Positions 17,543 to 35,596 of a DNA stretch of 64,000 bases are shown here, one piece after another. The first letter of the stretch is position 1, and each line of letters opens with the position of its first letter. The notes below the pieces were generated by a model. The model was given only the letters and a program-made list of their open reading frames with translations, did no database searches and was not told the origin of the DNA. This stretch comes from Shimia aestuarii (GTDB lineage Bacteria > Pseudomonadota > Alphaproteobacteria > Rhodobacterales > Rhodobacteraceae): positions 1,054,001-1,118,000 of the forward strand of contig NZ_FOTQ01000001.1 in NCBI RefSeq assembly GCF_900114635.1. Reading direction: 5' to 3'. A program made the position numbers and the translations under genes.

Positions 17543-18769
17543 ATGGAAAGCAAGACCTCAAGCTTCTTGAAATTCACCGAGCGGTTTTTTCGCCTTGGCG
17601 GTGGCTTCCTGATCGAAGAGGACAACCCGTATTTCGTTGCCACGGACATGCTCGAGGACATGAGCGACCAGTGGCCCGACGGTTATCTGTCGATGGCCCA
17701 TTACGACTATCTTGGCCTGATGCACCACCCGGAGACCACCGAGGCCGCCAAGGCCGCCATCGATCGGCACGGCACCGGCGCGGGCGCGTCGCGTCTGGTG
17801 GGGGGCGAACGCATGGCGCACCGCGCCTTTGAAGAGGAAATGGCCGAGTTCCTTGGCGTGGGCGGGGTCATGACGATGATCTCGGGCTATCTGACCAATG
17901 TGAGCGTCATTGGGCTTTTCATGCACCACAAGGACCTGATCGTGGTGGACGAGTTGGCGCATAACTCGATCATGGTGGGTGCACAGGGGGTTCGGGCGGA
18001 TGTCGTATCCTATCCGCATAACGACCTTGATGCACTTGATGCGCTGCTGCAGGAAAAGCGCGGCAACTATACGCGGGTGATGATCTGTACCGAGGGGCTG
18101 TTCTCGATGGACGGGGACATCACCGACCTGCCGAAGCTTCTGGAGATCAAGGAACGCCACGACGCCTGGCTTCTTCTGGACGAGGCACATTCCTATGGTG
18201 TGCTGGGCGCGACGGGGCGCGGTTCGTGCGAGCATTTCGGTGTTGACCCCGAGCGGATCGAATTGTCGGTGGGCACGCTTTCCAAGAGCTTTGCCTCGGC
18301 TGGCGGGTTTGTCGCGGGCAACAAGGCGGCGATCGACGTCATGCGTTTCGGCGTGCAGGGCTTTATCTATTCGGTCGGCCTTCAACCGGCGACGGTGGCC
18401 AGCTCGCACCAGGCGCTGCGCATTCTGCGCCGCGAACCCGAGCGGGTCACACGCCTGCGCGAAAACTCCGTCATGTTCCTGAACAAGGCGCGCGAGGCCG
18501 GGTTGAACACAGGAACAGCCGTGGGTGAAGCGGTTGTGCCGATCATGTTCGATACGCCGATGGAATGCCTGCAAGTTGCCAAGAAGCTGATGGATCAGGG
18601 GATATATGCCCCGCCCGTCATCCAGATCGGCGTTCCCAAGGATCTGCCGCGTATCCGGTTCTTCATTTCCGCAAGCCACACCGAGGCCGACATCGACCGG
18701 GTGATCAACGCCGTGATCGAGGCCTCTGGCGGCGCCCATGCGGCGCGGGCTCGCCTGAGCGCGGAGTAA
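17543..18769 (+). CDS. spt: Alpha-oxoamine synthase, serine palmitoyltransferase-like
   Basis: A 408-residue PLP enzyme of the alpha-oxoamine synthase family, which decarboxylatively condenses an amino acid with an acyl-CoA or acyl-ACP. The PLP lysine is K248 in GTLSK; DEAH (213-216) and H140 in AHNSI line the cofactor. MAHYDYLGL (51-59), YPHNDL (157-162) and TEGLFSMDGD match bacterial serine palmitoyltransferases closely, more so than glycine C-acetyltransferase or BioF. It has an N-terminal extension of some 45 residues. The start at 17543 follows GGGGA; an upstream ATG at 17450 would lie in the hairpin. With the KDSR-like gene at 20524 it would make the sphingoid base. Other oxoamine products are possible. 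Confidence 0.78.
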   Translation: MESKTSSFLKFTERFFRLGGGFLIEEDNPYFVATDMLEDMSDQWPDGYLSMAHYDYLGLMHHPETTEAAKAAIDRHGTGAGASRLVGGERMAHRAFEEEMAEFLGVGGVMTMISGYLTNVSVIGLFMHHKDLIVVDELAHNSIMVGAQGVRADVVSYPHNDLDALDALLQEKRGNYTRVMICTEGLFSMDGDITDLPKLLEIKERHDAWLLLDEAHSYGVLGATGRGSCEHFGVDPERIELSVGTLSKSFASAGGFVAGNKAAIDVMRFGVQGFIYSVGLQPATVASSHQALRILRREPERVTRLRENSVMFLNKAREAGLNTGTAVGEAVVPIMFDTPMECLQVAKKLMDQGIYAPPVIQIGVPKDLPRIRFFISASHTEADIDRVINAVIEASGGAHAARARLSAE

Positions 18770-18773
18770 CGGC

Positions 18774-19406
18774 ATGCCCCGGTTGCGTCACCTCTCATTG
18801 TCATTGGCCCTGTTTCTGGGCCTGACATGGGTGTTGAGCGCGCTGGTGCCGCAAGAGGTCGAGGCAAAGCCTCGCCTGATCTGGGGCGAAAGCAAGACGA
18901 CAAGCCAGCTGCCGGTCGCAAAAAAGGGATTTCCGCACCCCAAGGACCGCTACCAGCTGTTTTTTGTTCAACGCACGATGAACGCCAATACCGTAGTCTA
19001 TGCCGCGAAGTTCGATGCCGACGGCATGCTGAACGCGCGCCGACCGATTGTCGGCTATTGGCGCCGCTACGAGGAACAGGGGCAAACCATGGCCCTGCGC
19101 TGGTATGAACGTGTCTTCGGATACGGCGTCCGCACGCGGCGCCATGCCAACGGGCGGGACTTTGTCGTTTCCTTTAACGCGATGCGCAACGAGACGCTCG
19201 AGCTGCGCCAGACCGGACCTTTTCAGGCCACGCTATGGACACGGCGCAACAATCGTGATTTTGAGCTGATCTATGGGTTTCTCGATCTTGATGAAGGCGG
19301 TGTTCTGCCCCGGGTCGAGCGCCTGCGCCTTTATACGACGGATCCGGCAACGGGCCGTTATGTCACACACTTGATTGCCGTTTCCGGTGGAGAATACCAC
19401 GAATGA
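18774..19406 (+). CDS. Exported protein of unknown function, possible DUF4833
   Basis: A 210-residue protein with a signal peptide or N-terminal anchor (LSLSLALFLGLTWVLSALV). The mature part is rich in aromatic and basic residues: RYQLFFVQRTMNANTVVY, GYWRRYEE, and a LYTTDPATGRYVTHL end. I think it resembles DUF4833 proteins but cannot confirm it. It starts four bases after the Spt-like stop and overlaps the inositol-phosphate synthase start by ATGA, so it is embedded in the lipid operon. It could be a periplasmic lipid-handling factor; this is only context. Confidence 0.55.
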   Translation: MPRLRHLSLSLALFLGLTWVLSALVPQEVEAKPRLIWGESKTTSQLPVAKKGFPHPKDRYQLFFVQRTMNANTVVYAAKFDADGMLNARRPIVGYWRRYEEQGQTMALRWYERVFGYGVRTRRHANGRDFVVSFNAMRNETLELRQTGPFQATLWTRRNNRDFELIYGFLDLDEGGVLPRVERLRLYTTDPATGRYVTHLIAVSGGEYHE

Positions 19407-20524
19407 CTTCTCAGACGACGCCTACGCCCATCCGCACCGTGATCGTGGGTGTTGGCAACTGTGCCAGCTCGCTGATTCAAGGCGTATCCTACTGCAAGGC
19501 CATGGGCGATGACGCTGTTGGTGTAAGCTTTCCCGATCTGGGCGGTTATCGCCCGCAGGATATCGAACTGGTCGGGGGCTTTGATGTTGACCTGCGCAAG
19601 GTCGGCAAGCCGCTTGGCGAGGCCGCCTTTGCCCAGCCCAACTGCACCGAGAAATTCTATACCAAGCTCGATGATCAGACCGCGCAAATCTATCGCGGGC
19701 CAGATCTCGACGGGGTTGCTTGGCACATGCTGCAGAACCCCGAGGACCGGTCGTTCCGCCTGTCGCCGGAACCGGCGATGAGCCAGGCCGAGGTGGTCGA
19801 CACGCTGCGCAACCTCAAGGCGGAAGTGATGATCATCTTCCTTCCCGTCGGGTCGCAGAAAGCCGTGGAATTCTATGTCGAATGCGCGCTGGAAGCGGGC
19901 GTGGCCGTTGTGAACGGCATTCCGGTCTTCATCGCCTCGCACCCGGTCTGGGCCGAGAAATTCCGCGCCGCGGGCGTGCCGATCCTTGGCGACGATTTCA
20001 AGGCGCAGTTCGGCGCGACCATCGTGCACCGCACGCTTGCCAACCTGGCCAAGATGCGCGGCGTCGAGATCGACCGCACCTATCAGCTTAACGTCGGGGG
20101 CAACACCGACTTCCTGAACATGACCGAACAGGAGCGCCTGACCAACAAGCGAGAGAGCAAGACCGAAGCGGTGCAGGCCGTGCTCAACAATCGCCTGCAG
20201 GACGATGATATCCGCATTGGTCCCTCCGATTACGTGCCGTGGCTCAATGACCGCAAGGTCGCCTATGTCCGCATGGAAGGCCGCCTGTTCGGCGGGGCGC
20301 GCACCAATATCGAAGTACGTCTCGATGTCGAGGACAGCCCGAACGCGGCCGCCGAGGCGCTGGTCGCGATCAGACTGGCCAAGATTGCGCAGGATCGCGC
20401 CATGGCCGGCCCCATCGCCGACGCAAGCGCGTTTCTGTTCAAGCATCCGCCCGAACAGATCGAAGACACCGACGCCCATGACGTGATCCTGAATTTCGCC
20501 CAAGGGGGCGAGGCGGGCGCCTGA
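19403..20524 (+). CDS. ino1: Inositol-3-phosphate synthase
   Basis: A 373-residue NAD-dependent isomerase that turns glucose 6-phosphate into 1L-myo-inositol 3-phosphate. The NAD loop VGVGNCASSL is at 15-24. Family blocks seen are GDDFKAQFGATIVHR, LNVGGNTDFLN, KRESKT (catalytic lysine region) and YVPWLNDRKVAYVRMEG. The length and short form match the actinobacterial/archaeal type rather than the longer eukaryotic one. It overlaps the exported-protein gene by ATGA and the reductase gene by one base (TGATG). It supplies the only plausible inositol head group for the lipid enzymes around it. Confidence 0.9.
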   Translation: MTSQTTPTPIRTVIVGVGNCASSLIQGVSYCKAMGDDAVGVSFPDLGGYRPQDIELVGGFDVDLRKVGKPLGEAAFAQPNCTEKFYTKLDDQTAQIYRGPDLDGVAWHMLQNPEDRSFRLSPEPAMSQAEVVDTLRNLKAEVMIIFLPVGSQKAVEFYVECALEAGVAVVNGIPVFIASHPVWAEKFRAAGVPILGDDFKAQFGATIVHRTLANLAKMRGVEIDRTYQLNVGGNTDFLNMTEQERLTNKRESKTEAVQAVLNNRLQDDDIRIGPSDYVPWLNDRKVAYVRMEGRLFGGARTNIEVRLDVEDSPNAAAEALVAIRLAKIAQDRAMAGPIADASAFLFKHPPEQIEDTDAHDVILNFAQGGEAGA

Positions 20525-21318
20525 TGCGCCCGGCCTTTATCACCGGCGGGTCCAGCGGCATTGGTTTGGCCGCTGCGATCCGGTTGGCGCAAAAAGGCCA
20601 CGACATCGCGCTGTTTGCACGCGACCCGAGCAAGCTTTCGGCGGCGCGTTTGGCCATTCTGAACGTCGCGCCAACCTGCGATGTGCGCGAATTTCCTGTT
20701 GATGTCAGCGACCGCGCCGCGATCACGGCGGCGGTGGGTGAAGCCGTCGCGGCACTTGGCGCGCCCGAGGTGGCGATTGCCAGCGCCGGGATCGCGCAGC
20801 CGGGGTTGTTCAGCGACCAGAGCCTCGACGTGCATGAACGGCAGATGGCCGTGAACTATTTCGGTGCGCTCTATTTCGTGCGCGCCCTGACCGAGCCCAT
20901 GGCCGCCGCCGGTGGGGGCCAGATCGGGCTGGTCTCGTCGGGGGCGGCGTTTTTCGGGATCTACGGCTATGGCGCCTATGCGCCGTCCAAATTCGCGCTA
21001 CGCGCTTTGGCGGAAATCCTGCACCTCGAACTTGAGGCGCAGAAGATCGGCGTCACGATCTGTTATCCACCCGATACGGACACGCCGATGCTCGAAGAGG
21101 AAATGAAAACCAAGCCCGCCGCCACCGTGAAAATCTCGGAAGGGGGCGGATTGTGGACCGCTGACGCCGTGGCCGTTCGCATGCTCAAGGGCATGGCCCG
21201 CCGCCGTCCGGTCGTCGCGCCCGGTTTCCAGATGGCGGGGCTGCACTGGTTCACGAGCCTGATCGCGCCTCTCCTGCGCTGGCATCAGCGGCGCATCATC
21301 CGCAAGTACGGCCCATGA
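20524..21318 (+). CDS. Short-chain dehydrogenase, 3-ketosphinganine reductase-like
   Basis: A 264-residue SDR. GGSSGIG (8-14) binds NADPH, and the catalytic set is S138/S139, Y152 and K156 (YAPSK). The block YPPDTDTP (181-188) followed by EEEMKTKP is the signature region of eukaryotic KDSR/Tsc10, which reduces 3-ketodihydrosphingosine. The C-terminal 40 residues are hydrophobic and basic, as in KDSR, and may bind the membrane. Its neighbours (Spt-like 17543, inositol-phosphate synthase 19403) support the lipid role. A general SDR acting on another ketone cannot be excluded. Confidence 0.75.
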   Translation: MRPAFITGGSSGIGLAAAIRLAQKGHDIALFARDPSKLSAARLAILNVAPTCDVREFPVDVSDRAAITAAVGEAVAALGAPEVAIASAGIAQPGLFSDQSLDVHERQMAVNYFGALYFVRALTEPMAAAGGGQIGLVSSGAAFFGIYGYGAYAPSKFALRALAEILHLELEAQKIGVTICYPPDTDTPMLEEEMKTKPAATVKISEGGGLWTADAVAVRMLKGMARRRPVVAPGFQMAGLHWFTSLIAPLLRWHQRRIIRKYGP

Positions 21319-22199
21319 GCGGTTTGTCGATTGAACAGGTGGCGCTGGCGGCGGCTGGGCTTTTGGTCATGGGCTATGTCCTGCTTGGCCTTGTCTGGCT
21401 GTTTCCCGGAACCCGTGCCACGGGGGCCGAGCTTCTCAAGGTGTTCACCAGCGCGACGCTGATCGCAGCGATCCTGATCGGTGCCGCCCTTGCTGGCACT
21501 GTGGGGGTCGTGGTGCTGATGGTGCTGGTCGCGTTGCGGGCCGGGTATGAGGCGGGCACGGTACGGCTTGGCGCGGGGATGGCCGCAAAAGGCATGGCCG
21601 TTCTGGCGCTCGGGCTTTGCCTTGCAGCCATGGTCGAGCCCTGGGCCGCCGTGGCGATGGCGGGTTTGTGGCCGCTGCTGCTGCTGCGCCTGCTGATGGC
21701 GCAGGGCGCGGACAGCGCCGCGCGCCGGATCGTGGACCTCATGGTCTTCCCGGTTCTGCCAATGACGCTTCTGGCGTATGGCACAGTACAGCCCGAGCTG
21801 CGGGTGACGATGTTTGCCGCCTATGCCATGGTCGAGATTTTCGACAGTTTTGCGCTCTTGTCGGGCAAGCTTTTTGGCCGGCGCAAGGCGTTTCCGGTGC
21901 TTTCACCCAACAAGACGGTCGAGGGTCTCATCGGCGGGGCAGTGAGCCTGTGCCTGATCACCGCGCTGGTCGCGCCGATGCTGTCGCTGCCGCTGACCCT
22001 GTCTGTTGGGGCCGCCGCCATGGTGGCCGTTCTGGCCATCGCGGGGGATCTGGCCGCGTCGCGGCTCAAGCGGATGGCCGGGGTCAAGGATTACCCGGTG
22101 GTGCTGCGCCGCCAAGGCGGCGTTCTGGACTCGCTGGACAGCTGGATCGCCGCGGGCGGCGGGCTGGTGGCGCTGCATTTCGTCCTGACCCTGCTGTAA
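21315..22199 (+). CDS. CdsA-like phosphatidate cytidylyltransferase, variant active site
   Basis: A 294-residue polytopic membrane protein. The C-terminal CdsA signature is recognisable at about 249-276 (SRLKRMAGVKD, then QGGVLDSLDS). Canonical enzymes have HGGxxDRxD there; in this protein the histidine is Q and the arginine is S, while the GG and both Asp are kept. LSPNKTVEGLIGG is the other family block. CdsA makes CDP-diacylglycerol from CTP and phosphatidate; the changes may mean a different lipid phosphate substrate. It overlaps the reductase stop by ATGA. Confidence 0.78.
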   Translation: MSGLSIEQVALAAAGLLVMGYVLLGLVWLFPGTRATGAELLKVFTSATLIAAILIGAALAGTVGVVVLMVLVALRAGYEAGTVRLGAGMAAKGMAVLALGLCLAAMVEPWAAVAMAGLWPLLLLRLLMAQGADSAARRIVDLMVFPVLPMTLLAYGTVQPELRVTMFAAYAMVEIFDSFALLSGKLFGRRKAFPVLSPNKTVEGLIGGAVSLCLITALVAPMLSLPLTLSVGAAAMVAVLAIAGDLAASRLKRMAGVKDYPVVLRRQGGVLDSLDSWIAAGGGLVALHFVLTLL

Positions 22200-22238
22200 C
22201 GGGTTGTCTGGGATGGCTGCAACGGGGACACTCGCGCC

Positions 22239-23354
22239 ATGAGACTGTTCGCATCGCTCTTTCACATTCTGGGTCTGCCGATCTTGATCCGCCTGTTGCT
22301 GATCCTTGCGGCGGTGGAGGCCATTTTTCTGGCCGAGAGTTTCACGACCCTGATGGAAGAGGCCCTTCGCAATGACGCGATGGCGGCGGATGTCGGGGTG
22401 CTGCTGGTATTGCGGATGCCCCGGATTGCCGATCTTGCATTGGCGATCGGCGTGTTGATCGCAGTCTATTTCGTGGTGTCGGATGCCCGGAGCCGTGGTG
22501 AGCTGGTAATCCTCGCCTCGGCCGGCGTGCGTTGGAGCCGGATCGTGCAACTGGTTCTGATCCTGGGCCTTCTGGGCGGCGCGGTCAGCTTTGCCACCGC
22601 CGGCTTTCTGTCGCCCATGGCGCGCTATGCCAGCCGGATCAAGATGGCTGAACTGCGCCGTGATCATATCGTATCGCGAATTGAACACGCCGGCCCTCTG
22701 GAAAGCCTGCAAACCATCCGCGACGTGACCTTCATCGCCACCCCGCCGCCCGACAGCCTGACCCGGCATGGTCAGCTGTTCATCTTTCAGCCGGATGTGG
22801 ACGGACGGTGGCGGGCCATGCAAGCGCGCAACTGGGTCGTGACCGACCCGGACGACACAGGTCAGCGCAAGATCGAGCTCGAGGATCTGTCCGCCTATGA
22901 AGGCGCCTATCCCGCCCCGGCACGCCCGATGCGGTCGATCAGTACCTTTGCCGTCCGCTCCGCCGATTTTGCCTTTGGCATGTCCGATGTGACCTCACCG
23001 CCCAAACGCGAACGCAGCCGGGCGGAACGCATACTTGACATCTCGACCGAGGAAACGCCGCGCCTTGCGCGGGTCATGGCGCGGGCATTGATGGTGCCGA
23101 CGGCCGCTTTGCTGGCGCTTGCGGCGGTGGTGGCCGGAGGGGGCGGTCTGGCACGATTCGTGGCCCTGCCGCTGGCGGCGGTCCTGCTGATGAGCGGGGA
23201 TGTCATGGCGCGCGCGGTTGTGGTTGGCATCAGCGCGGATATCGGGCTTGCGCTCACGGCGCTGTTGTCCTTTGTCGTCTATCTCGCACCGCCGCTGGCC
23301 TATCTCGCCTATCGCGGGGAAACTCTGATGATCCCGCAGGGGCGCGGCGCATGA
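22239..23354 (+). CDS. LptF/LptG family permease (LptF-like position)
   Basis: A 371-residue inner-membrane protein with six expected spans: three in residues 10-130, a periplasmic jellyroll-like domain (about 140-265), and three more in 285-360. The ATPase-contact loop RSRGELVILASAGVRW is typical of LptF/G. It overlaps the next gene by ATGA. LptF/G normally extract LPS for the Lpt bridge. A pair inside a lipid-synthesis locus, with no lptB, lptC or lptA beside it, could be a dedicated exporter for the product or simply the house copy; the window cannot decide. Confidence 0.8.
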   Translation: MRLFASLFHILGLPILIRLLLILAAVEAIFLAESFTTLMEEALRNDAMAADVGVLLVLRMPRIADLALAIGVLIAVYFVVSDARSRGELVILASAGVRWSRIVQLVLILGLLGGAVSFATAGFLSPMARYASRIKMAELRRDHIVSRIEHAGPLESLQTIRDVTFIATPPPDSLTRHGQLFIFQPDVDGRWRAMQARNWVVTDPDDTGQRKIELEDLSAYEGAYPAPARPMRSISTFAVRSADFAFGMSDVTSPPKRERSRAERILDISTEETPRLARVMARALMVPTAALLALAAVVAGGGGLARFVALPLAAVLLMSGDVMARAVVVGISADIGLALTALLSFVVYLAPPLAYLAYRGETLMIPQGRGA

Positions 23355-25326: not shown

Positions 25327-25989
25327 ATGCGCTATTCCCTGCGACATGTGTTTGAAAGCAACCGTGAAACAACGCGCGAAGAGCGGCACACCAACTGGTC
25401 CGTGTTCCTGCTCTACCGCTGGCCCGGCATGATCATGGCCTGGCTGTTTCTCTTGATCCCGCTGACCCCGACCCGCGTCACGAGCCTGATGTTGATCCCG
25501 GTGGCACTGTTGCCGCTGAGCGCGCTGTTCCTGCCGTTGTCCGTGGCCGGGATCGTGGCCTGCGCGCTGGCGCTTCTGATCTTCGCGCTGGACTGTGCGG
25601 ACGGAGCCATGGCGCGGGCCAGTGGCCAGAGTTCCGCCGCCGGGGCGCGGTACGACTTCCTGCTCGACATGTTCACCTGGGGCGTTCTTTACGCCTCCAT
25701 GGGGATTCTGGCGGACCGGATGGCCGAGGGCGGCACCTTCTGGACCATGATCGGTTTCGCCGCGGCCTGGCTGCGCCTGTTTGCCCGCGTCTGCAACGAC
25801 CGCGCCCCCGAGACCGATGCGCCCTCCGCGCTACCGCGTTTCTGGAGCGCCACTTGGTTTCTTGACGGGTTGAGCGGGCTTATCCCCTTGTGTCTGCTGT
25901 CCGGTTCCCTGATGCCGGCCGCGGTCATCGCGGTCCTGATTTACAGCATCGGGGACGTGGTATTTGCGCTGAAGCGGGTCATCGAATGA
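25327..25989 (+). CDS. CDP-alcohol phosphatidyltransferase family protein (first of two)
   Basis: A 220-residue membrane enzyme. The full CDP-OH-P motif D-x2-DG-x2-AR-x8-G-x3-D-x3-D is present at 89-114 (DCADGAMAR, then G106, D110, D114). Start at ATG 25327; an upstream frame from 25282 has no RBS. The family moves a phospho-alcohol from CDP to a second alcohol or the reverse. Next to the nucleotidyltransferase and a glycosyltransferase (ATGA overlap, 25986-25989), it is the best local candidate for transferring phosphoinositol to a lipid. Confidence 0.83.
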   Translation: MRYSLRHVFESNRETTREERHTNWSVFLLYRWPGMIMAWLFLLIPLTPTRVTSLMLIPVALLPLSALFLPLSVAGIVACALALLIFALDCADGAMARASGQSSAAGARYDFLLDMFTWGVLYASMGILADRMAEGGTFWTMIGFAAAWLRLFARVCNDRAPETDAPSALPRFWSATWFLDGLSGLIPLCLLSGSLMPAAVIAVLIYSIGDVVFALKRVIE

Positions 25990-28069: not shown

Positions 28070-28147
28070 TTCTGCATATTTGCGCCCATCCGCCGCCGGG
28101 GCAAGCGAATAACACCGCAATGTCCCGTTGCAATGGCAGGGAGAACC

Positions 28148-29782
28148 ATGCCAGACCGGACAGCACCGCCAAGGACCTTTTTCGGCGGTGGGCAGGCATC
28201 AATTGGGAACGACATCTTGGCCAATGGCGATCTGGTGATTTCGGCGGATTTCGGCACTTCGGGCGTCAAGGTCGGGGTGGTCGACAGCGATCTGAACATT
28301 CTTGCGCGCGTGACCGAAACCTATCCACTTGCGCTGGGAGGCAACGGGTTTGCCGAACAGAACCCCGAGGATTGGTGGGCCGGGTTTACCCGCGCGGTCG
28401 CTGCGCTTCACAGGGAATTGCCTGATCTCAGGAAACGCGTCGGCGCCATCGTTTTCTGCAGCCAGGTCTGCAGCGTGATCTGTGCAGATGAGAACGGCAC
28501 GCCCCTGCGCCCCTGCCTGACCTGGATGGACAAGCGCGGCGCGGCGGTCGGCAACAAGTTGATTGGAGGATTTCCAAGCGTTCATGGGTATCGCGCCGAC
28601 AAGGGGTTGATCTGGCTTGCATTGGCCAACGGCGCCCCGGCCAAGAATGGCATGGACCCGACAGCCAAATTTGTCTGGGTGCGCGAGAACGAACCCGAGA
28701 TCTGGGCACGGACACGCTGGCTGTTGGATGCGCGTGACTGGCTGGTGGCGCGGGCGACAGGGGAAATCACCTCCTGCGCTGAATCCGCCAACCTGACATG
28801 GGTGATGGACACCCGGCGCGGGCGCGAAGGCTGGTCCGAACGCCTGTGCAAGATGGTGGGTGTGCCGATCGAGCGGATGCCGCCCATCGTACAGGGCGAG
28901 GCATGCGTTGGTGGCCTGACCAAAAAAGCGGCGGGCGAACTTGGGCTGGACCGCGATGTGGATGTTCTTGGCGGCACGATTGACGTCACCGCGGCCGCGC
29001 TGGGGGCGGGCGAAGTCGAAGACGGCGCGCTGCATATCAGCGTGGCGACAAGCGCATGGATCGCCGGGTTCTTTCCGGGCCGACGGCTCAGCGTGCCACA
29101 TGCCTTTGCCACGATCACCTCGGGGCTTGATTATCGCCCGCTGCTGATCGCTTCACAGGAAAACGCCGGATCGGCCATGCAATGGGTGGTCGAAAACACC
29201 GGGGGCGACATGCAGGACGCGCTGCAAACGATGGGCCCGCTCATGGCGGATGACCCGATGTTCCTGCCCTGGATGACAGGGGAACGGGTCCCGGTGGATG
29301 ATCGCCGCCTGCGCGGCACGTTTCACGGGCTCGGGCTGCATCACGATACGGATGCCCTGCGCCGCGCCGCCGTGGAGGGCGTCGTGCAAAACCTGCGCTG
29401 GGCCTTTGGCCTTGTGTCGCGCCAGCGAGGCGCAGACCGGCGGGGGCCGGTTTCGCTGGTCGGGGGGGCGGCGGCCACGCCGGCCTTTGCTCAGATGCTC
29501 GCCGATGCGCTTGACCGCGAGGTGCGCGTGGGCGAGGCGCGCCATGCCGGGATGCTGGGGGCCGCCACACTGGCCGCGCCGGTCATGGGCTGGGCCGACA
29601 GCGCCACGCAGGCCGCGGCCCGCCTTGGCCAGCGCGCCAACGCGATCTATACACCCGACCCGGTCCGGGTCGACCTGATGGCACTCCGCGCGGAGCGGCT
29701 GAACCGGATACGCCCGGACATCGTGCGCAGCTATCGGCGCAACGGTGGGCACGGGGATGAACAAGGGACGTTTGAGCCATGA
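28148..29782 (+). CDS. FGGY-family carbohydrate kinase
   Basis: A 544-residue kinase of the xylulokinase/glycerol kinase fold. SADFGTSGVKVGVVD (32-46) is the phosphate-1 loop, LTWMDKRG the substrate region, and GGTIDVTAA with LVGGAAATPAFAQMLAD the ATP site of the second domain. Start at ATG 28148, eight bases after AGGGAG. It overlaps the next CDP-alcohol phosphotransferase gene by ATGA. Its substrate could be a sugar alcohol or inositol-like polyol whose phosphate is later activated; sequence alone does not give it. Confidence 0.82.
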   Translation: MPDRTAPPRTFFGGGQASIGNDILANGDLVISADFGTSGVKVGVVDSDLNILARVTETYPLALGGNGFAEQNPEDWWAGFTRAVAALHRELPDLRKRVGAIVFCSQVCSVICADENGTPLRPCLTWMDKRGAAVGNKLIGGFPSVHGYRADKGLIWLALANGAPAKNGMDPTAKFVWVRENEPEIWARTRWLLDARDWLVARATGEITSCAESANLTWVMDTRRGREGWSERLCKMVGVPIERMPPIVQGEACVGGLTKKAAGELGLDRDVDVLGGTIDVTAAALGAGEVEDGALHISVATSAWIAGFFPGRRLSVPHAFATITSGLDYRPLLIASQENAGSAMQWVVENTGGDMQDALQTMGPLMADDPMFLPWMTGERVPVDDRRLRGTFHGLGLHHDTDALRRAAVEGVVQNLRWAFGLVSRQRGADRRGPVSLVGGAAATPAFAQMLADALDREVRVGEARHAGMLGAATLAAPVMGWADSATQAAARLGQRANAIYTPDPVRVDLMALRAERLNRIRPDIVRSYRRNGGHGDEQGTFEP

Positions 29783-30387
29783 TTGACGGGCTGTTGAAAG
29801 CAAAGATCGACCCGATCTGGGAATCCATGTCGACACCGCTGGTCAAGGCAGGAATGACCCCGAACCAGGTGACATTCGCCGGGCTGGTCCTGATCCTGCT
29901 TGCGTCGGGTGCGTTCCTGCTGCATGGCTCACCACTGATCTACGGGCTGAGCCTTGCCGTCGCCTTTGCCTTTGACGCGCTGGACGGGGCCGTGGCACGG
30001 CGGCGCGACATGCGCTCGATGGCGGGGGGCTATTTCGACGCCATGGTCGACCGCTACCAGGAACTCGCCGTGCTGGCGACGATTGCACATGTTTATGACC
30101 AATGGCCGCTGGCGCTGGCCTGTTTCTCGGGCAGCGTGATCACCTCTTATGCCAAGGCGCGCACCGCCATCGAGATCAAGATCAGCAACGAGGACTGGCC
30201 CGATTTCTTCGAACGGCTGGAGCGGGTGATTTACCTCTGCGCGATGCTGATCCTTGCCGGGGTTCTGGGCGCTTGGGTGATCTGGGTCGGCCTTGCCGGG
30301 TTCGCAATCCTGTCCCATGTCACGGCGTTGCAACGCGCGCGGCGCGCGACCGGGTTGTTGCGACAGGTGGATCAGGACGGGCGGTAA
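29779..30387 (+). CDS. CDP-alcohol phosphatidyltransferase family protein (second of two)
   Basis: A 202-residue membrane enzyme with a perfect CDP-OH-P motif at 66-91 (DALDGAVAR, G83, D87, D91) and an opening MTPNQVTF typical of phosphatidylinositol(-phosphate) and archaetidylinositol-phosphate synthases. This resembles the class that joins CDP-lipid with inositol 3-phosphate more than the first copy at 25327 does. It is coupled to the FGGY kinase. Its 3' end runs 16 bases into the convergent membrane-protein gene. Confidence 0.84.
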   Translation: MIDGLLKAKIDPIWESMSTPLVKAGMTPNQVTFAGLVLILLASGAFLLHGSPLIYGLSLAVAFAFDALDGAVARRRDMRSMAGGYFDAMVDRYQELAVLATIAHVYDQWPLALACFSGSVITSYAKARTAIEIKISNEDWPDFFERLERVIYLCAMLILAGVLGAWVIWVGLAGFAILSHVTALQRARRATGLLRQVDQDGR

Positions 30388-31130
30388 CCGCGCAGCGTCG
30401 CCAGGCAATCCGATACCCAGCTCAACAAAAAGAACAGGAACGACGAGATCAGGATCAGCTCAGTCGTGACATAGGCGTGATAAAGCAGGTCATTCCACGG
30501 CGAAAGGTCGATCCCCTTAACGATGAACAGCCCCAGATACAGCACCGACAGGGTATAAGGCACCAGCACGTAATATCGCCGGAAACGGCAACTCGAACGT
30601 GGAAGAACCCGCTGCGCGTCGTCCACTCTGTCATGCAGGTTCGACAGGTGCGAGCCGACAAACACCACCCCTGCCTGTGAAAAGAAGAACAGGTAGCTGC
30701 CCACCATGTGCATTTCATGGTGATCGGGAAAGCGGAACTGGCTAAGCATGATCATGCCCGTCGAGGCCAGTGCCTGAAGGCCGACAATCGCGACGGAAAA
30801 AACCGTGATCCATTTCAGCTGGCGCGGATCGACACCGGGCTGTCGTGCAAGGCGGTTGCGGAAATAGCTGGTGAACAAAAGGATGGACAGGAACAGCGCC
30901 GGGGCGCAGATCAGCATCCAGATCGCAAACGGATCGCCGACGGACGGCTCTTCAAGCGCGCGGCTGATCGTGGGGGGCGAATGCGCGATATAGTCAGGGC
31001 GCAGCTCGGCAAAGGCCCAGCGCGAGGTATAGATCTGTTGGTTCACCATGGTCACGACCAGCAGATTGCAGGTGATGGCCACCCAGAGAAGCAGACTGTC
31101 TCGGCGCGCGGGCAGCGGCAGGGACGTCAT
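30372..31130 (-). CDS. Six-span membrane protein, possible Frag1/DRAM-like
   Basis: A 252-residue protein with about six hydrophobic segments (near 14-30, 70-88, 105-128, 145-160, 188-205, 215-238). EPSVGDPFAIWML after the first loop and HMVGSYLFFFSQAGVVF in the middle look like the Frag1/DRAM/Sfk1 pattern, where a conserved His-x-x-Gly opens a helix. In eukaryotes this group includes PGAP2 and the N-terminal part of Cwh43, which remodel GPI lipids. The assignment is by eye and weak. It is coupled to the ABC exporter (ATGA overlap 31127-31130). Confidence 0.5.
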   Translation of the reverse strand: MTSLPLPARRDSLLLWVAITCNLLVVTMVNQQIYTSRWAFAELRPDYIAHSPPTISRALEEPSVGDPFAIWMLICAPALFLSILLFTSYFRNRLARQPGVDPRQLKWITVFSVAIVGLQALASTGMIMLSQFRFPDHHEMHMVGSYLFFFSQAGVVFVGSHLSNLHDRVDDAQRVLPRSSCRFRRYYVLVPYTLSVLYLGLFIVKGIDLSPWNDLLYHAYVTTELILISSFLFFLLSWVSDCLATLRGYRPS

Positions 31131-32884
31131 GATGCGGCCTTTCGGGTCTGACGTTCATCCGACACCACACGCCCGCCTTCCATCTTGATCAGGCGGTCAC
31201 ACTTGCCGAACTGGTGGTCATCATGGGTGATGGCCAGAACAAGCTGTCCGGTGGCCGCCAGTTCCGGCACCAGCACATCGTAAAAGAACGCCCGGTTGGC
31301 CGGGTCCTGATCGGCGGCGAATTCATCCAGCACAATGATCGGGCGCTGTTCCGCCAATGCCACGGCCAAGGCAAGACGACGGCTTTGCCCGGCCGACAAC
31401 GAGGTCGAGGAAAAGCGGTCTTCGCGAAGCTTGACCCGCTCGGACAGGCCCAGCTGCGTAATCCGTCGGTCAAGTTCCGCCAACTCCCCTTCATCCATGC
31501 CATAGGCTCGGTCAAACAGGTGAAATCCGCTGAACACACCGCAGAACAACTCGCGATAGCCTGACGTGGTCTCGTCATCAAGCGCCTGCCCATCGAGCAG
31601 GATTTCGCCCTTGTCCGGGTGCCGCAACCCGGTGATCAGAGAGAGAAGCGTGGTCTTGCCTGAACCGTTACCACCGCAGATGAACACGGTTTCACCGGGT
31701 TCAAAGGCAAGGTTGACCGGCCCGAGATGAAAGGGTTCGGCATCCGGTTTCCCGGGTTCACGGATCGTGGCCTGCACATCACGCAGTTCGATCCGTTCAA
31801 AACGGTCCGGCACTGCTCCGCCCCCGAACAGAACGTTGGACTGGGCTGCGGACAGCCGTTCCTCGACATTCTGGATCTTGTAATAGGCGTTCTCGGCGCG
31901 TGACAGGCGGGGCATCATGTTGAACATCTGTTCGATGGGACCGTTTGTCAGGAACACGATGGTCAGCACCTGGAACATCGTGGTCGTGTCCCCACCCTGA
32001 AGCAGCGGAATGGCGATCACCACGAAACACAGCAACAGCACGATGGCGGATTGCCCCACCAGCGTGCTTGCGGAATAAAGCGTTTCCGACTTCCGATGGC
32101 TGTCCACATTGTCCGAAATCGCCTGCATCGTGACGCCTTCAATCGCTTCACGGCGGGTCTGGCGCTGGCGCAATTCGCGCCAGCCCGAAAGCATGTCCCC
32201 GATGCGGTCGCAGTAATTGGCAAAGGTCTGGGACGCGCTGGCGTTGTGGCGCCGCGCCGGCAGGTCAAGAAGGAGATACCCTGCGATGCCGATCACGACG
32301 GCGAAAACCGCTGCAAGACCGGCCGCCCAGGACACATAGAACAGGTAGGGCACGGCAATGAGCAGGACAACCACGGCCTCGATCGCCTCAATCACGTTGA
32401 TCACGGCGCCGGAAAGTTCCCCGACCTCGCGGGTGGCCGCGGAATAGACTTCGCCCCGCGGGCTGGAACTCAGGAAATCGACATTGGCCCGCAGCAGTTG
32501 ATGCGCCATGCGCATCCGCAGCCGGGCCATGATCCGGGTAATGATGCCAAAGGCGCGCAGTCGTTGGTAATAGCTGGCGACGAGCATCGTCAGCGCCGAC
32601 ACGATCAAAAGCCAGATGCTCCAGCCAAATCCCTCGTCGAAATTCTGGGCGGTTTCATTGATGGCAAAGATCATGCCCGAGCGGCTGATACTGGCAAGCA
32701 GGGTCAGAAGCACGATCGGGTCGCGGGCCACGCCGCTGGTGACTGTCAGGAACCGGATCACGGTCATGCGGCGCCGGAACAGGGCTTTGAGGCCGCGCTC
32801 TTCCGGTCCGGGAATTTTCCTGAGTTCGATCGACACGTTACCCTCGGACGTCATGGCCGGAACGCTATCGGGTTTGCCTGCCAT
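31127..32884 (-). CDS. ABC exporter, cyclic-peptide-transporter type (PvdE/SyrD-like), fused permease and ATPase
   Basis: A 585-residue half-transporter. The N-terminal 320 residues hold six membrane spans, and the ATPase has GGNGSGKTTL, LSAGQSRRLALAVALA and LDEFAADQDP. The DE-x-AADQDP Walker B and the ITHDDHQF switch region are characteristic of the TIGR01194 (PvdE/SyrD/cyclic peptide) group rather than MsbA. The start at 32884 follows AAAGGTGA, seven bases after the upstream gene's stop. No peptide synthetase is nearby, so the cargo is more likely the lipid or glycan made here. Confidence 0.82.
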   Translation of the reverse strand: MAGKPDSVPAMTSEGNVSIELRKIPGPEERGLKALFRRRMTVIRFLTVTSGVARDPIVLLTLLASISRSGMIFAINETAQNFDEGFGWSIWLLIVSALTMLVASYYQRLRAFGIITRIMARLRMRMAHQLLRANVDFLSSSPRGEVYSAATREVGELSGAVINVIEAIEAVVVLLIAVPYLFYVSWAAGLAAVFAVVIGIAGYLLLDLPARRHNASASQTFANYCDRIGDMLSGWRELRQRQTRREAIEGVTMQAISDNVDSHRKSETLYSASTLVGQSAIVLLLCFVVIAIPLLQGGDTTTMFQVLTIVFLTNGPIEQMFNMMPRLSRAENAYYKIQNVEERLSAAQSNVLFGGGAVPDRFERIELRDVQATIREPGKPDAEPFHLGPVNLAFEPGETVFICGGNGSGKTTLLSLITGLRHPDKGEILLDGQALDDETTSGYRELFCGVFSGFHLFDRAYGMDEGELAELDRRITQLGLSERVKLREDRFSSTSLSAGQSRRLALAVALAEQRPIIVLDEFAADQDPANRAFFYDVLVPELAATGQLVLAITHDDHQFGKCDRLIKMEGGRVVSDERQTRKAAS

Positions 32885-32891
32885 GTGCCAG

Positions 32892-33896
32892 TCACCTTTT
32901 GGCCGGGCCGCCGACCTGCCAACGGTCGGCATAGTGGCGGATGGCCTTGGAATTGTTGCGATCCTCGAGCGCGCCGTTGCCCCGGTTCAGGTTGCCCAGC
33001 GCGGTGGCCTTGTAATGCACCGCATCGGCCTTGGGCAGAAAGCTCAGCCCCTTGCAAGGCAGCACCCGGCGCGGCGCGTGGCACAGGGCGCTGGAGCGCA
33101 CGTCATCCGCCAGAAACGCGGCGCGCGGCGTGTCCGAGAAATCGGTCAGCTCCTCGAGGTCAAAGAACCGGGGCTGCACCGCATAGCCGAAAACGCCCAT
33201 GAACACGTCAACGGGAAACAAACGACGCTGGCGATGGCCGCGCACCGGGGCGGAAGGCTTCTGCAGGATGTTGCTCAGGATGGTGGTCGGACGGTCCAGA
33301 TAGTCCTCGGGCACCACCCAACCGGCCATGGTCAGCGCCGTGTTGGGATGATCCGCCATGCCTTTTTCGAACGTCTCCAGAAAGTCGCGCGGATAGATGC
33401 GATCATCATCCACCACCACGATCACCTGATCGGGCGCGGCATCCAGAAGGGTCGGGATCAGCTTTGTCGCCGGCCCCCAGTCACGTCCCCTGCGAATTTC
33501 GAGAAAGGCCAGACCGCTCAGCGCCTCGGGGATTACATAAGGTTCGTCCTCGCGCAGAGATTCATCCGGCACGTTCAGCACGATCTTTTTTGGCGGGCGC
33601 GACTGGTCGATCAGCCCCTTGAGCACCGTTTCCAACCGAGAGATTCGGCTGGGGATGGTGGTCAGCGACACGATGAGGTCCGACGTCTCGTTCGCCTGCC
33701 AGCGCAGGTCCAGTTCCTGCAGTGACAGGCGCGAAAGGCGGCGTTCGCGCAGAAGGTCGGGCAACAAACGCTCCCCTTCAAAGAGGTGATGCAGCCAATA
33801 GGCCAGTCCCAGCGCCACCACGATTGCCGCGATAAAAATCAATACCTTGCCCCTTGTCGCCCCGGCTTGCTCTGACCCGGAATGAAATCTGGTCAT
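32892..33896 (-). CDS. Membrane-anchored glycosyltransferase-like protein
   Basis: A 334-residue protein with one N-terminal membrane span (VLIFIAAIVVALGLAYWL, about 18-35). The soluble part has SDLIVSLTTIPSRISRLETV and IVVVDDDRIYP, the latter being a DxD-type donor site, so a GT-A fold is likely. The start at 33896 is used because the upstream extension to 33998 overlaps the divergent gene. It begins the minus-strand trio with the ABC exporter and the Frag1-like protein. The sugar and acceptor are unknown. Confidence 0.68.
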   Translation of the reverse strand: MTRFHSGSEQAGATRGKVLIFIAAIVVALGLAYWLHHLFEGERLLPDLLRERRLSRLSLQELDLRWQANETSDLIVSLTTIPSRISRLETVLKGLIDQSRPPKKIVLNVPDESLREDEPYVIPEALSGLAFLEIRRGRDWGPATKLIPTLLDAAPDQVIVVVDDDRIYPRDFLETFEKGMADHPNTALTMAGWVVPEDYLDRPTTILSNILQKPSAPVRGHRQRRLFPVDVFMGVFGYAVQPRFFDLEELTDFSDTPRAAFLADDVRSSALCHAPRRVLPCKGLSFLPKADAVHYKATALGNLNRGNGALEDRNNSKAIRHYADRWQVGGPAKR

Positions 33897-33952
33897 TCCC
33901 GGTCCGGCCCGGTTAAATGCTTGTACGTGCAAATAACCCCGGGTGCGCCGTG

Positions 33953-35596
33953 ATGCAAAGGTCGAATGATGCAATTTTTGTGACGGGCGCGGATGCAACC
34001 TATGCCCGGACCTTGTATCAGCTTTTGCGAGCGGTGGCGCGCAAGGGCTGGAACCGCGGCATGACGTGGATCGCCTACGACCTTGGTATGCGCGCCGAGC
34101 AGCGCGAAATGCTTGAAACGCAGTTTGACTGGGTCACGTTCCGCACGCTCGATCTTGCCGCCCTGCCCGGCCATTACGTGCCAGCCGAGGGCAGCTATGC
34201 GTGGAAACCGCAGATCATGTGGGAGGTGGTCGAGGCCGCAGACGGCCCGGTGATCTGGATGGACAGCGCCAACCTGCCCCATCGGGCGCCCGACGGGATG
34301 CTGGCCCATATCCGCGCGCATGGGCTTTATCTTTTGCGCGGACAGGCCCCGTTGCAGGAACGGTGCGATCCCAAGGTTCTTGAGGCTCTGAATGTGCCGC
34401 GCTGGACATGGGGGACGCGGGAATGCGTTTCGGGGCTGGTTGGCGTGGATGCAGGCAATCCCGAGATGCGCGAGATCATGCAACGCTGGTGCGCGCTGGC
34501 CGAGCAGCCCGAGATCATGCGCCCGAAAGAGTCCATCGAGCGGCACATGCACGATCAGGCGGTGCTGAACGCGCTGGTTGCTGATCGGGTTTGCAAGGGC
34601 GAGATCGTGCTCCCAGAGGAGGACGTCGATATCTCCTCTGGCCGCCCGGTGCGGTTCCTGTCAACGCGCAACAAGGTCAAACCGGATGCACCGCTTTGGC
34701 AGGACCCGTGGATCAGGGCGCGTTATCGTATTTCCAAGATCGTGGACCAGTTCCTGCACCGGCTGGATGCGTTCCATCTTGATCACGATCCCTTCTGGCG
34801 CATGTGGGGGGAGAAATTCGTGGTCATGACGCGGGATGGTGCGGGCGCGCCAGAGGAACTCCCCTGCCCGTTTGGCCACTATTATGCCGACCCGTTTCCG
34901 ATCGAAGACAACGGCGAGACGTGGGTGTTTGTCGAAGACCTGAACTATTGGAAGGATCGCGCCACGCTGGCCGCGATCCCGCTACACGGTAATCGCAAGG
35001 CGGTCCCGATCCTTGATCCGGGGGTGCATGCATCCTTTCCCTTCCTGTTCCGCTATGACGGGCGGCTATGGATGCTGCCCGAGACCTGCAAGAATGGGCG
35101 GCTGGACCTTTATGAATGCACCTCCTTCCCGGATGGTTGGCGATTGCACCGCTCGATCCTGACCGGCGTGAACGCTGCGGACAGCGTGATTTTCGAACAT
35201 GGTGGGCGCTGGTGGTTGATCACGTCGATGGAATCGCCGTTTTCGGGCGGGGCTTACCGCGCGCTGGCGATTTTCCACACGGATGACCCGATTGACGGCG
35301 ATTGGAAGGCGCATCCTGTCAACGCAAAGGGGCGCGAAATCACGGCGCGCCATGGTACTGGGCGCAATGCCGGGGCCGTGTTCGAATGGCAAGGCAAGTT
35401 GATAAGACCCGTGCAATCGAGCCGCGAGTATTATGGTCAGGGCATGGAACTGCGCGCGATGACGCTGACGCCCGAGCATTTCGAAGAAGAGGTGATCGAG
35501 ACCCCGCCCCACCTTGAGATGACGCGTGGCGAAGGCGTGCATCACATGGCACAGCTCGGCACGCGGATCGTCTGGGACCGGCGCACACGCCACTGA
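33953..35596 (+). CDS. Two-domain glycosyltransferase with a GINT1-like C-terminal domain
   Basis: A 547-residue protein. The N-terminal half (about 1-250) looks like a capsule-type GT-A region: YAWKP (82-86) and VIWMDSAN (100-107). The C-terminal half (about 288-545) repeats a propeller-like pattern: YYADPFPIEDNGETWVFVED, SFPFLFRYDGRLWMLPETC, and SVIFEHGGRWWLITS. This matches the domain named after plant glucosamine inositolphosphorylceramide transferase 1 (GINT1). Bacterial proteins with the domain also occur in capsule loci. The start may instead be 33917; neither ATG has a strong RBS. It is divergent to 32892-33896. Confidence 0.68.
   Translation: MQRSNDAIFVTGADATYARTLYQLLRAVARKGWNRGMTWIAYDLGMRAEQREMLETQFDWVTFRTLDLAALPGHYVPAEGSYAWKPQIMWEVVEAADGPVIWMDSANLPHRAPDGMLAHIRAHGLYLLRGQAPLQERCDPKVLEALNVPRWTWGTRECVSGLVGVDAGNPEMREIMQRWCALAEQPEIMRPKESIERHMHDQAVLNALVADRVCKGEIVLPEEDVDISSGRPVRFLSTRNKVKPDAPLWQDPWIRARYRISKIVDQFLHRLDAFHLDHDPFWRMWGEKFVVMTRDGAGAPEELPCPFGHYYADPFPIEDNGETWVFVEDLNYWKDRATLAAIPLHGNRKAVPILDPGVHASFPFLFRYDGRLWMLPETCKNGRLDLYECTSFPDGWRLHRSILTGVNAADSVIFEHGGRWWLITSMESPFSGGAYRALAIFHTDDPIDGDWKAHPVNAKGREITARHGTGRNAGAVFEWQGKLIRPVQSSREYYGQGMELRAMTLTPEHFEEEVIETPPHLEMTRGEGVHHMAQLGTRIVWDRRTRH

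Follow-up and report, generated by a model that had tools for sequence, protein, structure and literature searches.

Fungi, plants and protozoa have inositol sphingolipids as central components of their membranes, and a PI-to-ceramide transferase step is used by Bacteroides, fungi and plants. In bacteria the genes for such lipids have been worked out in Bacteroidetes (excerpts of PMC9246714). A related system is the CPG/CPG2 locus of Caulobacter crescentus (CC_1152–CC_1168), which according to excerpts of PMC11324152 carries LptF2/G2 copies, a flippase, a CDP-alcohol phosphotransferase and a nucleotidyltransferase, with CC_1161 as the CdsA-like member of this phosphosphingolipid locus.

We compared these systems with a locus of Shimia aestuarii at positions 17543–35596 of the window, the whole 64,000-nucleotide stretch analysed. 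Profile searches with Pfam and NCBIfam found all the families named in the original prediction, which had proposed a complete route to a glycosylated inositol phosphosphingolipid; some gene starts were picked by eye. The first seven genes form an uninterrupted run on the + strand with overlaps or gaps of at most 39 bases: an alpha-oxoamine synthase resembling serine palmitoyltransferase, SPT (AOS, 17543–18769), a DUF4833 protein (18774–19406), inositol-3-phosphate synthase (MIPS, 19403–20524), a 3-ketosphinganine-reductase-like SDR (20524–21318), a second CdsA-like CTP:lipid-phosphate cytidylyltransferase (CdsA2, 21315–22199) and the LptF- and LptG-like permeases LptF2 (22239–23354) and LptG2 (23351–24481). 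Two CDP-alcohol phosphotransferases (CDPOH1 and CDPOH2), an NTP transferase, glycosyltransferases and an ABC exporter follow. The DUF4833 protein, a Stealth-family protein, an FGGY-family kinase and a flanking methyltransferase (16834–17352) had been missed earlier. Like the Caulobacter locus, as far as the excerpts describe it, this one clusters sphingolipid-type synthesis genes with a second LptF/LptG pair, a CdsA-like enzyme, a flippase, a CDP-alcohol phosphotransferase and a nucleotidyltransferase; unlike it, Shimia has MIPS, a PIP-synthase-like enzyme and the FGGY kinase, where Caulobacter has phosphoglycerate chemistry.

The gene cluster is confirmed as real, conserved and co-inherited. 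Among 390 genomes of the order Rhodobacterales, the host's own included, AOS and MIPS orthologues occurred in an identical set of 14 genomes from 6 genera, and all 14, split clusters included, also hold SDR, CdsA-like, LptF/G-like, DUF4833, GT4, FGGY and CDPOH2 genes. CDPOH2 thus accompanied AOS in 14/14 genomes and was found in 0/3 genomes having only a distant MIPS. Where AOS is split off it is not absent: it lies on another contig in G377 and ~180 kb away in G087. The module was also found, partly or wholly, in a second sample of 69 named alphaproteobacterial loci; in L257, AOS-SDR-CdsA-MIPS-GT4-desaturase-FGGY-CDPOH2 lie within ~9 kb. Since the core recurs in every AOS genome and in these loci, the cluster is not a chance one. 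The spt, ino1 and KDSR-like genes co-occur in all AOS genomes, so the neighbourhood survey did not refute their proposed linkage across Rhodobacterales, and the clustered sphingoid-base and phosphoinositol genes are co-inherited with Lpt-like export genes in all 14. The patchy distribution outside Shimia (14/390 genomes) could also reflect unrelated neighbours travelling together in a genomic island, but the core is kept in 14/14 genomes despite changes of order and strand and splits across contigs, a pattern that speaks for a link through function and not through position; the survey largely refutes this explanation, and we consider it scarcely credible.

Our main reading, to which we assign a probability of roughly 0.6, is that the product of the cluster is a phosphoinositol lipid that has a sphingoid-type backbone, is glycosylated and is sent to the outer membrane. 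Its direct basis is gene content, co-inheritance, enzyme families and conserved binding residues; all substrates, the reaction order, the kinase assignment and the location are what we infer.

The backbone would be started by AOS (408 aa, ATG start; PF00155, 168 bits), in a condensation of a long acyl thioester with an amino acid that is probably serine, and the SDR would reduce the ketone of the product. The best PDB match of AOS is SPT (3a2b, E 5e-64), and alignment to 3a2b showed the PLP lysine, stacking His, Asp/His and Arg motifs all present; we assume their usual catalytic roles, and they are common to the whole AOS superfamily rather than SPT-specific. In trees AOS falls outside the characterised SPT clade as sister to RkpG-like enzymes, the two together being split from the SPT, KBL, BioF and ALAS rows at 100/100, and against three NCBIfam SPT models it scored 200.7, 275.2 and 273.1 bits (cut-offs 670, 500 and 640), although the SPT alpha cut-off is strict enough that the Caulobacter control and 4/5 strong matches fall below it too. 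Use of serine and a palmitoyl chain is for these reasons a presumption, and given the position outside the SPT clade the enzyme may use a different amino acid or chain. In the two loci with the clearest sphingolipid companions, L257 and L261, AOS falls on the RkpG side and not in the Shimia clade. For the SDR, the predicted KDSR-like identity agrees with its best PDB match, yeast TSC10 (8jat, E 3e-21).

The sister enzyme beside rhizobial capsule-type PKS genes is presumably RkpG, and we take the corresponding Sinorhizobium genes to be rkpA-rkpG-rkpH, names that the record does not use. Beside the RkpG-like gene of S. meliloti lies an SDR with 39% identity to that of Shimia, and the two AOS/SDR pairs plausibly make similar long-chain amino-alcohols. 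Unlike in Shimia, the Sinorhizobium relatives follow a 2502-aa fatty-acid/polyketide synthase, and no MIPS, CdsA or CDP-alcohol phosphotransferase is among the 12 features shown for that neighbourhood in an incomplete gene table. For the rhizobial rkpGH genes, a role in making a special lipid that anchors or carries a surface glycan has reportedly been proposed. AOS and SDR might do the same here, inositol phosphate then being a glycan linker rather than a bulk head group; this would fit the sister clade and the related SDR, the capsule genes adjoining the S. meliloti relatives, and the GT4, Stealth and other sugar genes at our locus. We nevertheless regard it as quite unlikely: no polymerase or capsule-exporter family was found among the locus ORFs scanned, LptF/G-like permeases point to export of a lipid and not a polymer, and the small locus L257 shows a single GT4 as its only glycosyltransferase.

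To build the phosphoinositol head group of our main reading, MIPS (PF01658, 123 bits; TIGR03450, 372 bits, below the cut-off of 638) would provide inositol-3-phosphate and CdsA2 (PF01148, 112 bits) would convert a lipid phosphate to a CDP-lipid, to which CDPOH2 (29779–30387, + strand; PF01066, 50 bits) would join the inositol-3-phosphate. The host has one other PF01148 (CdsA) match, on contig C13, and a second CdsA was present in 6/6 genomes checked. The three top NCBIfam models for CDPOH2 were archaetidylinositol-phosphate synthase (119.6 bits, cut-off 180), PIPS (81.6, cut-off 170) and BT1523-type PIPS (65.5, cut-off 350), compared with 22.7 bits for the PgsA model. Its signature DxxDGxxAR...GxxxDxxxD is invariant in 14/14 genomes, as are S123, K126, R149 and R186, which align to S132, K135, R155 and R195 of MtPIPS (numbering counted by hand, and the comparison made with MtPIPS). 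Judged by its sequence, CDPOH2 resembles PIP synthases and retains four residues of the MtPIPS inositol-phosphate site. It thus shares family motif and site residues with mycobacterial and archaeal PIP/AIP synthases; unlike them, it lies below all equivalog cut-offs, is partnered by FGGY and has a lipid donor predicted to be sphingoid.

CDPOH2 could instead make ordinary phosphatidylinositol (phosphate) from CDP-DAG, with AOS and SDR serving a separate sphingoid lipid and the export system being shared. PIP synthases use CDP-DAG (excerpts of PMC4634129), and four Mesorhizobium loci (L235, L240, L243 and L244) carry CDPOH2 with neither AOS nor other module genes nearby. This alternative seems unlikely to us: the core holds a second CdsA though the host already has one, AOS lies immediately 5' of FGGY-CDPOH2 in L247, L248, L250 and L251, and Pfam scanning gave no PAP2-type match (Aur1-like IPC synthase) among the locus ORFs scanned. 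The last point also separates Shimia from Bacteroides thetaiotaomicron (BT_1522–BT_1526 with SPT BT_0870), where BT_1522 is the Aur1-like IPC synthase. The two share MIPS with a PIP-synthase-type enzyme, but the Shimia cluster itself includes AOS, SDR, the second CdsA and Lpt-like and ABC export genes. The presence of AOS, SDR and the second CdsA within the cluster suggests that an activated sphingoid lipid receives the inositol phosphate, with no transfer from PI. A PgpA-type phosphatase would then strip the extra phosphate; PgpA-family genes adjoin 20/69 sister loci, a further likeness to B. thetaiotaomicron, but the family is absent from the Shimia window and the host's sole copy is on contig C13.

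The lipid phosphate would come from a kinase acting on the primary hydroxyl of the sphingoid lipid. The conserved core has one kinase, FGGY (~28133–29782, start uncertain, + strand; PF00370/PF02782, 119 bits), of the carbohydrate-kinase fold, which is hence the sole core candidate. It was present in 14/14 genomes and directly upstream of CDPOH2 in 63/69 named loci, the two alignments lying -4 to 136 bases apart; in L261, which has AOS, SDR and CDPOH2, none was found within the locus DNA examined. We know of no FGGY kinase acting on a lipid. An LCB5/DAGK-type kinase (PF00781, CpgB family) was not found in the host genome at E 1e-8, nor in 8/14 of the genomes. More tentatively, and with the odds against it, this could be a third, independent bacterial phosphosphingolipid route, in which FGGY phosphorylates a sphingoid base or ceramide, CdsA2 makes the CDP-sphingolipid and the PIP-synthase homologue adds inositol-3-phosphate directly. 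Such a route would bypass phosphatidylinositol and the PI-to-ceramide transferase, and FGGY would be, to present knowledge, the first member of its superfamily to act as a lipid kinase.

Both CDP-alcohol phosphotransferases and the nucleotidyltransferase of the original prediction are present, but whereas CDPOH2 is core, the NTP transferase (24486–25238, - strand, start by eye; PF12804, 59 bits) and CDPOH1 (25327–25989, + strand; PF01066, 28 bits) are optional: they occur in 9/14 and 7/14 genomes, every one of the latter with the NTP transferase, and CDPOH1 is in 30/69 named loci, 28 of these with the NTP transferase. The NTP transferase might make CDP-inositol for CDPOH1 to transfer to ceramide, as in an alternative Bacteroides cluster in which an NTP transferase, a CDP-alcohol phosphotransferase and a HAD protein lie beside MIPS (excerpts of PMC9246714). 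Shimia has two of these three genes and a weak match to the inositol-phosphate cytidylyltransferase model (46 bits, cut-off 580), but no HAD match was found among the locus ORFs scanned, and 5/14 genomes lack both genes while retaining MIPS and the rest. Furthermore, the NTP transferase matches Treponema PntC (6pd1) nearly full length (residues 11–251 of 255, 97.6 bits), with both amine-contact glutamates kept in 44/44 alignments. The pair, an optional PntC-like module by sequence, is thus probably not the inositol step, and we consider the CDP-inositol scheme very improbable. Unlike in PntC-type 2-aminoethylphosphonate activation, the PEP-mutase motif EDKxxxxxNS is missing from both of the host's PF13714 matches, and some other phospho-amine may therefore be the substrate.

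As had been noted from the sequence, no ceramide synthase is visible: no bCerS homologue was found in the host at E 1e-5, nor in 12/14 genomes (host included), the query being the GNAT of L261, whose own identity as bCerS is assumed from its position. This ceramide-synthase-like GNAT, seen once only among sister loci, lies between SDR and CDPOH2; GNATs with 40–51% identity to it lie no further than 10 kb from canonical SPT genes in 6/6 such loci examined. Shimia differs from Caulobacter in its AOS clade and in that neither a bCerS homologue nor an LCB5-type kinase was found in the host, and the locus ORFs scanned (ACP-size ORFs left out) gave no match of the acyl-ACP-synthetase type. With no ceramide-synthase homologue found in the host, no clustered PIP phosphatase and only a candidate for the lipid kinase, calling the route complete was too strong. 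A desaturase, some of whose relatives are named sphingolipid delta-4 desaturase by automatic annotation, occurs in 13/69 sister loci (Lipid_DES below cut-off in L254 and L257, unseen in nine other desaturase loci scanned) and is absent from the 64-kb window. This desaturase and the L261 GNAT are independent pointers to sphingoid chemistry in the sister loci and support our main reading.

Finally, GT4 (25986–27095, + strand; PF00534, 92 bits), core in 14/14 genomes, would add a sugar to the lipid, optionally joined by the sugar-phosphate transferase-like Stealth protein (27092–28069, - strand, start by eye; PF11380, 83 bits; 30/69 named loci) and by the peripheral GT2-like (32892–33998, - strand; PF00535, 17.9 bits, below the cut-off of 23.3; 4/14 genomes) and GINT1_N-domain proteins (33917–35596, + strand). 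The last had been taken as a pointer to a glycosyl-inositol-phosphosphingolipid, but since it lies near the cluster in only 4/14 genomes and its match covers just part of a model for an N-terminal domain (PF24793, 95 bits, residues 365–526 only), it cannot serve as good evidence that the product is a plant-type GIPC. The ABC exporter (31127–32932, - strand, start uncertain; PF00005, PF00664 and, above cut-off, TIGR01194), a candidate flippase with homologues (32–71% identity) near the module in 14/14 genomes, would flip the glycolipid. LptF2 and LptG2 (PF03739, 65 and 96 bits for the pair; TIGR04407, 81 bits, cut-off 230, and TIGR04408, 105 bits, cut-off 240) would carry it outward, with the DUF4833 protein (PF16117, 83 bits) as exported helper. 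This beta-rich protein is found in 14/14 genomes and is likely exported, with an N-terminal hydrophobic helix; structure comparison of its AlphaFold model (mean pLDDT 84) gave no clear match in the PDB. A Frag1/DRAM/Sfk1-family membrane protein (30372–31130, - strand; PF10277, 47 bits) lies near the module in 12/14 genomes.

Altogether, Shimia and its relatives appear to build a sphingolipid-like membrane lipid whose inositol-phosphate head bears sugar, of a type known mainly from fungi and plants, with an enzyme set unlike the ones characterised in other bacteria. If Shimia, Stappia and other marine alphaproteobacteria share a conserved route of this kind, inositol sphingolipids would be more widely distributed than known so far, and evolution would have arrived at such a lipid in a second way. 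The cluster would also provide a dedicated Lpt-like exporter, as well as candidates for a lipid kinase and an exported helper.

All gene families that the original prediction had named in calling window positions 17543..35596 a candidate glycosyl-inositol-phosphosphingolipid locus were verified with Pfam and NCBIfam, although the GT2-like match fell short of its cut-off. The same analysis added a DUF4833 protein, a Stealth-family protein and an FGGY-family kinase. From the alpha-oxoamine synthase (AOS, SPT-like; 17543..18769) to the LptF/G-like permease LptG2 the genes lie on the same strand and almost abut; those for the NTP transferase, Stealth, Frag1, ABC and GT2 proteins lie on the opposite strand. 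The host genome (G000; Rhodobacteraceae, 4.23 Mb) is rated 100% complete, and its AOS is 99% identical to that of Shimia sp. W99. Elsewhere in the window, positions 54001-56000 show an AT skew of 0.32, strong relative to the remainder.

To map the cluster's distribution, we searched 390 genomes of the order, host included, for AOS (E 1e-60) and for inositol-3-phosphate synthase (MIPS, 19403..20524; E 1e-20). Matches to AOS occurred in 24 genomes: 14 orthologues (at least 57% identity; one divided between two contigs), 8 of an RkpG-like type (41-47%) and 2 ALAS-like (36-37%). MIPS matched in 17, namely the 14 AOS-orthologue genomes at 67% or more and three others at 55-56%. By genus, all 6 AOS genera fall within the 8 MIPS genera out of 139, with a random-draw probability of 3e-9, a figure calculated on related genomes with identity cuts picked after the search. 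Across the class, a sample of 289 genomes showed the close AOS orthologue in the window's own genus only. All 14 AOS-orthologue genomes carry DUF4833, MIPS, SDR, CdsA, LptF2, LptG2, GT4, FGGY and the second CDP-alcohol phosphotransferase (CDPOH2, PIP-synthase-like; 29779..30387), while Frag1 (12/14), the NTP transferase (9/14), CDPOH1 (7/14), GT2 (4/14) and GINT1 (4/14) vary. The core genes are all kept even where the module is dispersed, with AOS on a separate contig (G377), AOS ~180 kb from the rest (G087) or the module split among three contigs (G298). CDPOH2 was not found in any of the three searched genomes having only the distant MIPS (55-56%; loci L140, L141 and L142). In L141 and L142 this MIPS lies within a sugar cluster with a glycosyltransferase, an epimerase and a pyruvyl transferase, perhaps for an inositol-containing polysaccharide.

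A profile search of the genome contigs with the CDPOH2 alignment gave 80 loci, of which we kept 69, leaving out the 11 weakest (L262-L272, partial matches at 30-45%). The 69 are alphaproteobacterial by title (Shimia, Stappia, Pseudooceanicola, Salinihabitans, Psychromarinibacter, Maritimibacter, Mesorhizobium and others). Within flanks of at most 10 kb per side, whose cut-offs partly account for the low counts of far-end genes, homologues near CDPOH2 were FGGY in 63, GT4 in 58, CdsA in 53, LptF2 and LptG2 in 52 each, ABC in 46, SDR and Frag1 in 45 each, NTP transferase in 36, MIPS in 32, CDPOH1 and Stealth in 30 each, DUF4833 in 25, AOS in 23, GT2 in 9 and GINT1 in 7. FGGY directly precedes CDPOH2 in 63 of the 69 (gap -4 to 136 bases), and AOS directly precedes that pair in L247, L248, L250 and L251. 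The smallest version, L257, holds AOS, SDR, CdsA, MIPS, GT4, a desaturase, FGGY and CDPOH2 within ~9 kb; Lpt genes were not found within its flanks of at most 10 kb.

The three best models for CDPOH2 all describe inositol-phosphate users (archaetidylinositol-phosphate synthase, 119.6 bits; PIPS, 81.6; BT1523-type, 65.5), each match falling short of its cut-off, and the PgsA model gave 22.7 bits. In MtPIPS, R155 and R195 are described as binding the phosphate of inositol phosphate, as inferred from structure and mutants, with an additional contribution from S132 and K135 (PMC4634129). When CDPOH2 orthologues were compared with MtPIPS, these four residues were invariant across 14/14 proteins. 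Together, the models and the four kept site residues suggest that the acceptor is most likely inositol-3-phosphate, the product of MIPS. A phosphatase would then be needed to act on the CDPOH2 product, a role described for a PgpA-family enzyme in Bacteroides (PMC9246714). A PgpA-family gene lies within 20 of the 69 sister loci, and since each of 21 genomes searched has a single copy, PgpA may be housekeeping. In four Mesorhizobium loci (L235, L240, L243, L244) the CDPOH2 homologue (54-57%) adjoins a pgpA-family gene; MIPS, AOS and FGGY were not found near it.

We rejected the NTP transferase and CDPOH1 (25327..25989) as an inositol-adding pair on the main route, both being missing in 5/14 genomes. 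The match of the NTP transferase to Treponema PntC spans almost the whole protein. In 44/44 alignments (some loci being the same genome repeated) the transferase keeps both glutamates described near the AEP amine of PntC (PMC6697681). A part for it in making phosphonate in the host was weakened, as the PEP-mutase motif is in neither of the two PF13714 matches of G000. The motif check of the 25 PF13714 matches included that on G000:C15 (L092), left out G071:C5:63419, G041:C8:78845, G377:C201 and G255:C12, and found the motif in G298, G087 and G306. In G298 (L055, L087) AOS is directly preceded by PhnW (2-aminoethylphosphonate transaminase), and ~3 kb away lies a PEP mutase bearing the diagnostic EDKxxxxxNS motif; in G087 (L057, L089) a same-cluster class-V aminotransferase takes that position and a PEP mutase with the motif lies elsewhere in the genome. 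These two species may carry a phosphonate on the lipid or its glycan. The GINT1-domain protein, whose match covers part of an N-terminal domain model, was likewise set aside as evidence for a plant-like GIPC, being peripheral (4/14 genomes, 7/69 named loci). DUF4833 (18774-19406), for which a literature search under its name gave no paper and comparison with PDB folds no clear match, is a candidate exported lipid-handling protein.

AOS keeps the catalytic motifs of its superfamily and its top PDB match is a serine palmitoyltransferase (SPT); it scores under every NCBIfam SPT cut-off, of which the alpha one is strict, a Caulobacter control likewise falling under it. Two maximum-likelihood trees were built (57 and 53 rows; 11 near-duplicate or surplus rows were removed before the second, and the split AOS of G328 was excluded from both). 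In both, AOS falls outside the clade holding canonical alpha-type, beta-type and Bacteroidetes SPTs. Its sister clade comprises enzymes adjoining PKS-like proteins of ~2500 aa. One of these is the S. meliloti enzyme encoded next to the capsule genes, which we take to be RkpG, its neighbouring SDR presumably being RkpH. Because the cut-offs are missed and AOS lies outside the SPT clade, we infer its SPT role from context rather than from family membership. Assignment as BioF, KBL or ALAS was rejected: the host has its own two ALAS and KBL, and AOS groups with none of these families. Its BioF-model score is 337 bits, below the cut-off of 426, and no separate BioF was found among the four AOS-family matches of G000. 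The window SDR shares 39% identity with the S. meliloti SDR beside the RkpG-like gene, and its nearest solved relative is yeast 3-ketosphinganine reductase, TSC10. CDPOH2-type loci work with no fewer than two AOS lineages, since the AOS of L257 and of L261 fall on the RkpG side of the split. A ketosynthase lies near AOS in L247, L248 and L250, with acyl-carrier-type domains in L247. In the six RkpG-like loci examined (L061-L066; four from the order's eight and two from the class-wide sample), as in S. meliloti, the sister AOS adjoins a large PKS/FAS-like protein. In G546 (L033) a sister-clade AOS is directly upstream of a GNAT resembling bacterial ceramide synthase (bCerS), and G110 and G141 have bCerS-like genes too, elsewhere in the genome. 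Loci L061-L066, L033 and L174 suggest PKS-fed sphingoid lipids in other alphaproteobacteria.

Fatty-acid-desaturase genes occur in 13 of the 69 loci (L257:7124-8455, L254:3832-4938 and 11 more). Of the 13, 11 were scanned and matched PF00487 at 73-93 bits. The gene mostly has GT4 on one side and Stealth or FGGY on the other; in L254 it is near Lpt-like genes. Among 120 relatives listed, many bear the JGI names sphingolipid delta-4 desaturase or 4-desaturase/C4-monooxygenase, and one NCBI name, from Salinihabitans flavidus, is of the same kind; others are named simply as fatty acid desaturases or are unnamed. For the Lipid_DES domain, L254 and L257 scored under the cut-off, and the nine other desaturases scanned showed no match. 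In L261 a GNAT protein sits between SDR and CDPOH2. Six loci with canonical SPT genes were examined (L105, L166, L167, L170, L172, L173), and in each a GNAT encoded at most 10 kb from the SPT gene shares 40-51% identity with the L261 protein, which, judged by position, is taken to be a bCerS. A search found no such GNAT in 12 of the 14 locus genomes, G000 included, and 30-32% matches away from the locus in G071 and G255. The eukaryotic relatives of Frag1, PGAP2 and Cwh43, remodel GPI lipids, and by analogy Frag1 is a possible candidate to substitute for the missing bCerS-like protein.

The cluster's own CdsA-like enzyme (CdsA2, 21315..22199) is a core member, yet another CdsA is present in 6/6 genomes checked. 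A CdsA-like protein of the Caulobacter phosphosphingolipid locus is described as required for ceramide phosphoglycerate (PMC11324152), and from this parallel and the extra CdsA in the core we propose a sphingoid donor. Whereas the Caulobacter ceramide kinase is described as LCB5-type (PMC10331486), FGGY (~28133..29782) is the sole core kinase here; a search for the LCB5-type family found none in 8 of the 14 locus genomes, G000 among them. FGGY aligns over its full length with xylulokinases and has SQVCS in place of their GQMHG motif (SQICG, SQLCG, AQMCG and similar in orthologues). In 14/14 rows the conserved Asp of its DN motif is followed by Val. Our boldest inference is that FGGY would phosphorylate the lipid. 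It possibly acts instead on a sugar or cyclitol. In L261 no FGGY was found within flanks of at most 10 kb. The full route through FGGY phosphorylation and a CDP-sphingolipid is a tentative and rather unlikely one in our estimation.

Heaver 2022 (PMC9246714), the only paper found in a first search, describes the Bacteroides inositol lipid cluster and a PI-DHC-like lipid made by Novosphingobium without homologues of that cluster. We found no paper joining inositol sphingolipids with Rhodobacteraceae in a search that left most subscription journals outside, and none of the best 20 of 9,746 literature matches named Shimia or Stappia; the Shimia cluster was not found described in the literature searched. 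It is a real and conserved lipid cluster, which we judge, at a probability of about 0.6, to make a phosphoinositol lipid whose backbone derives from AOS, and it would be a variant of bacterial phosphosphingolipid synthesis.
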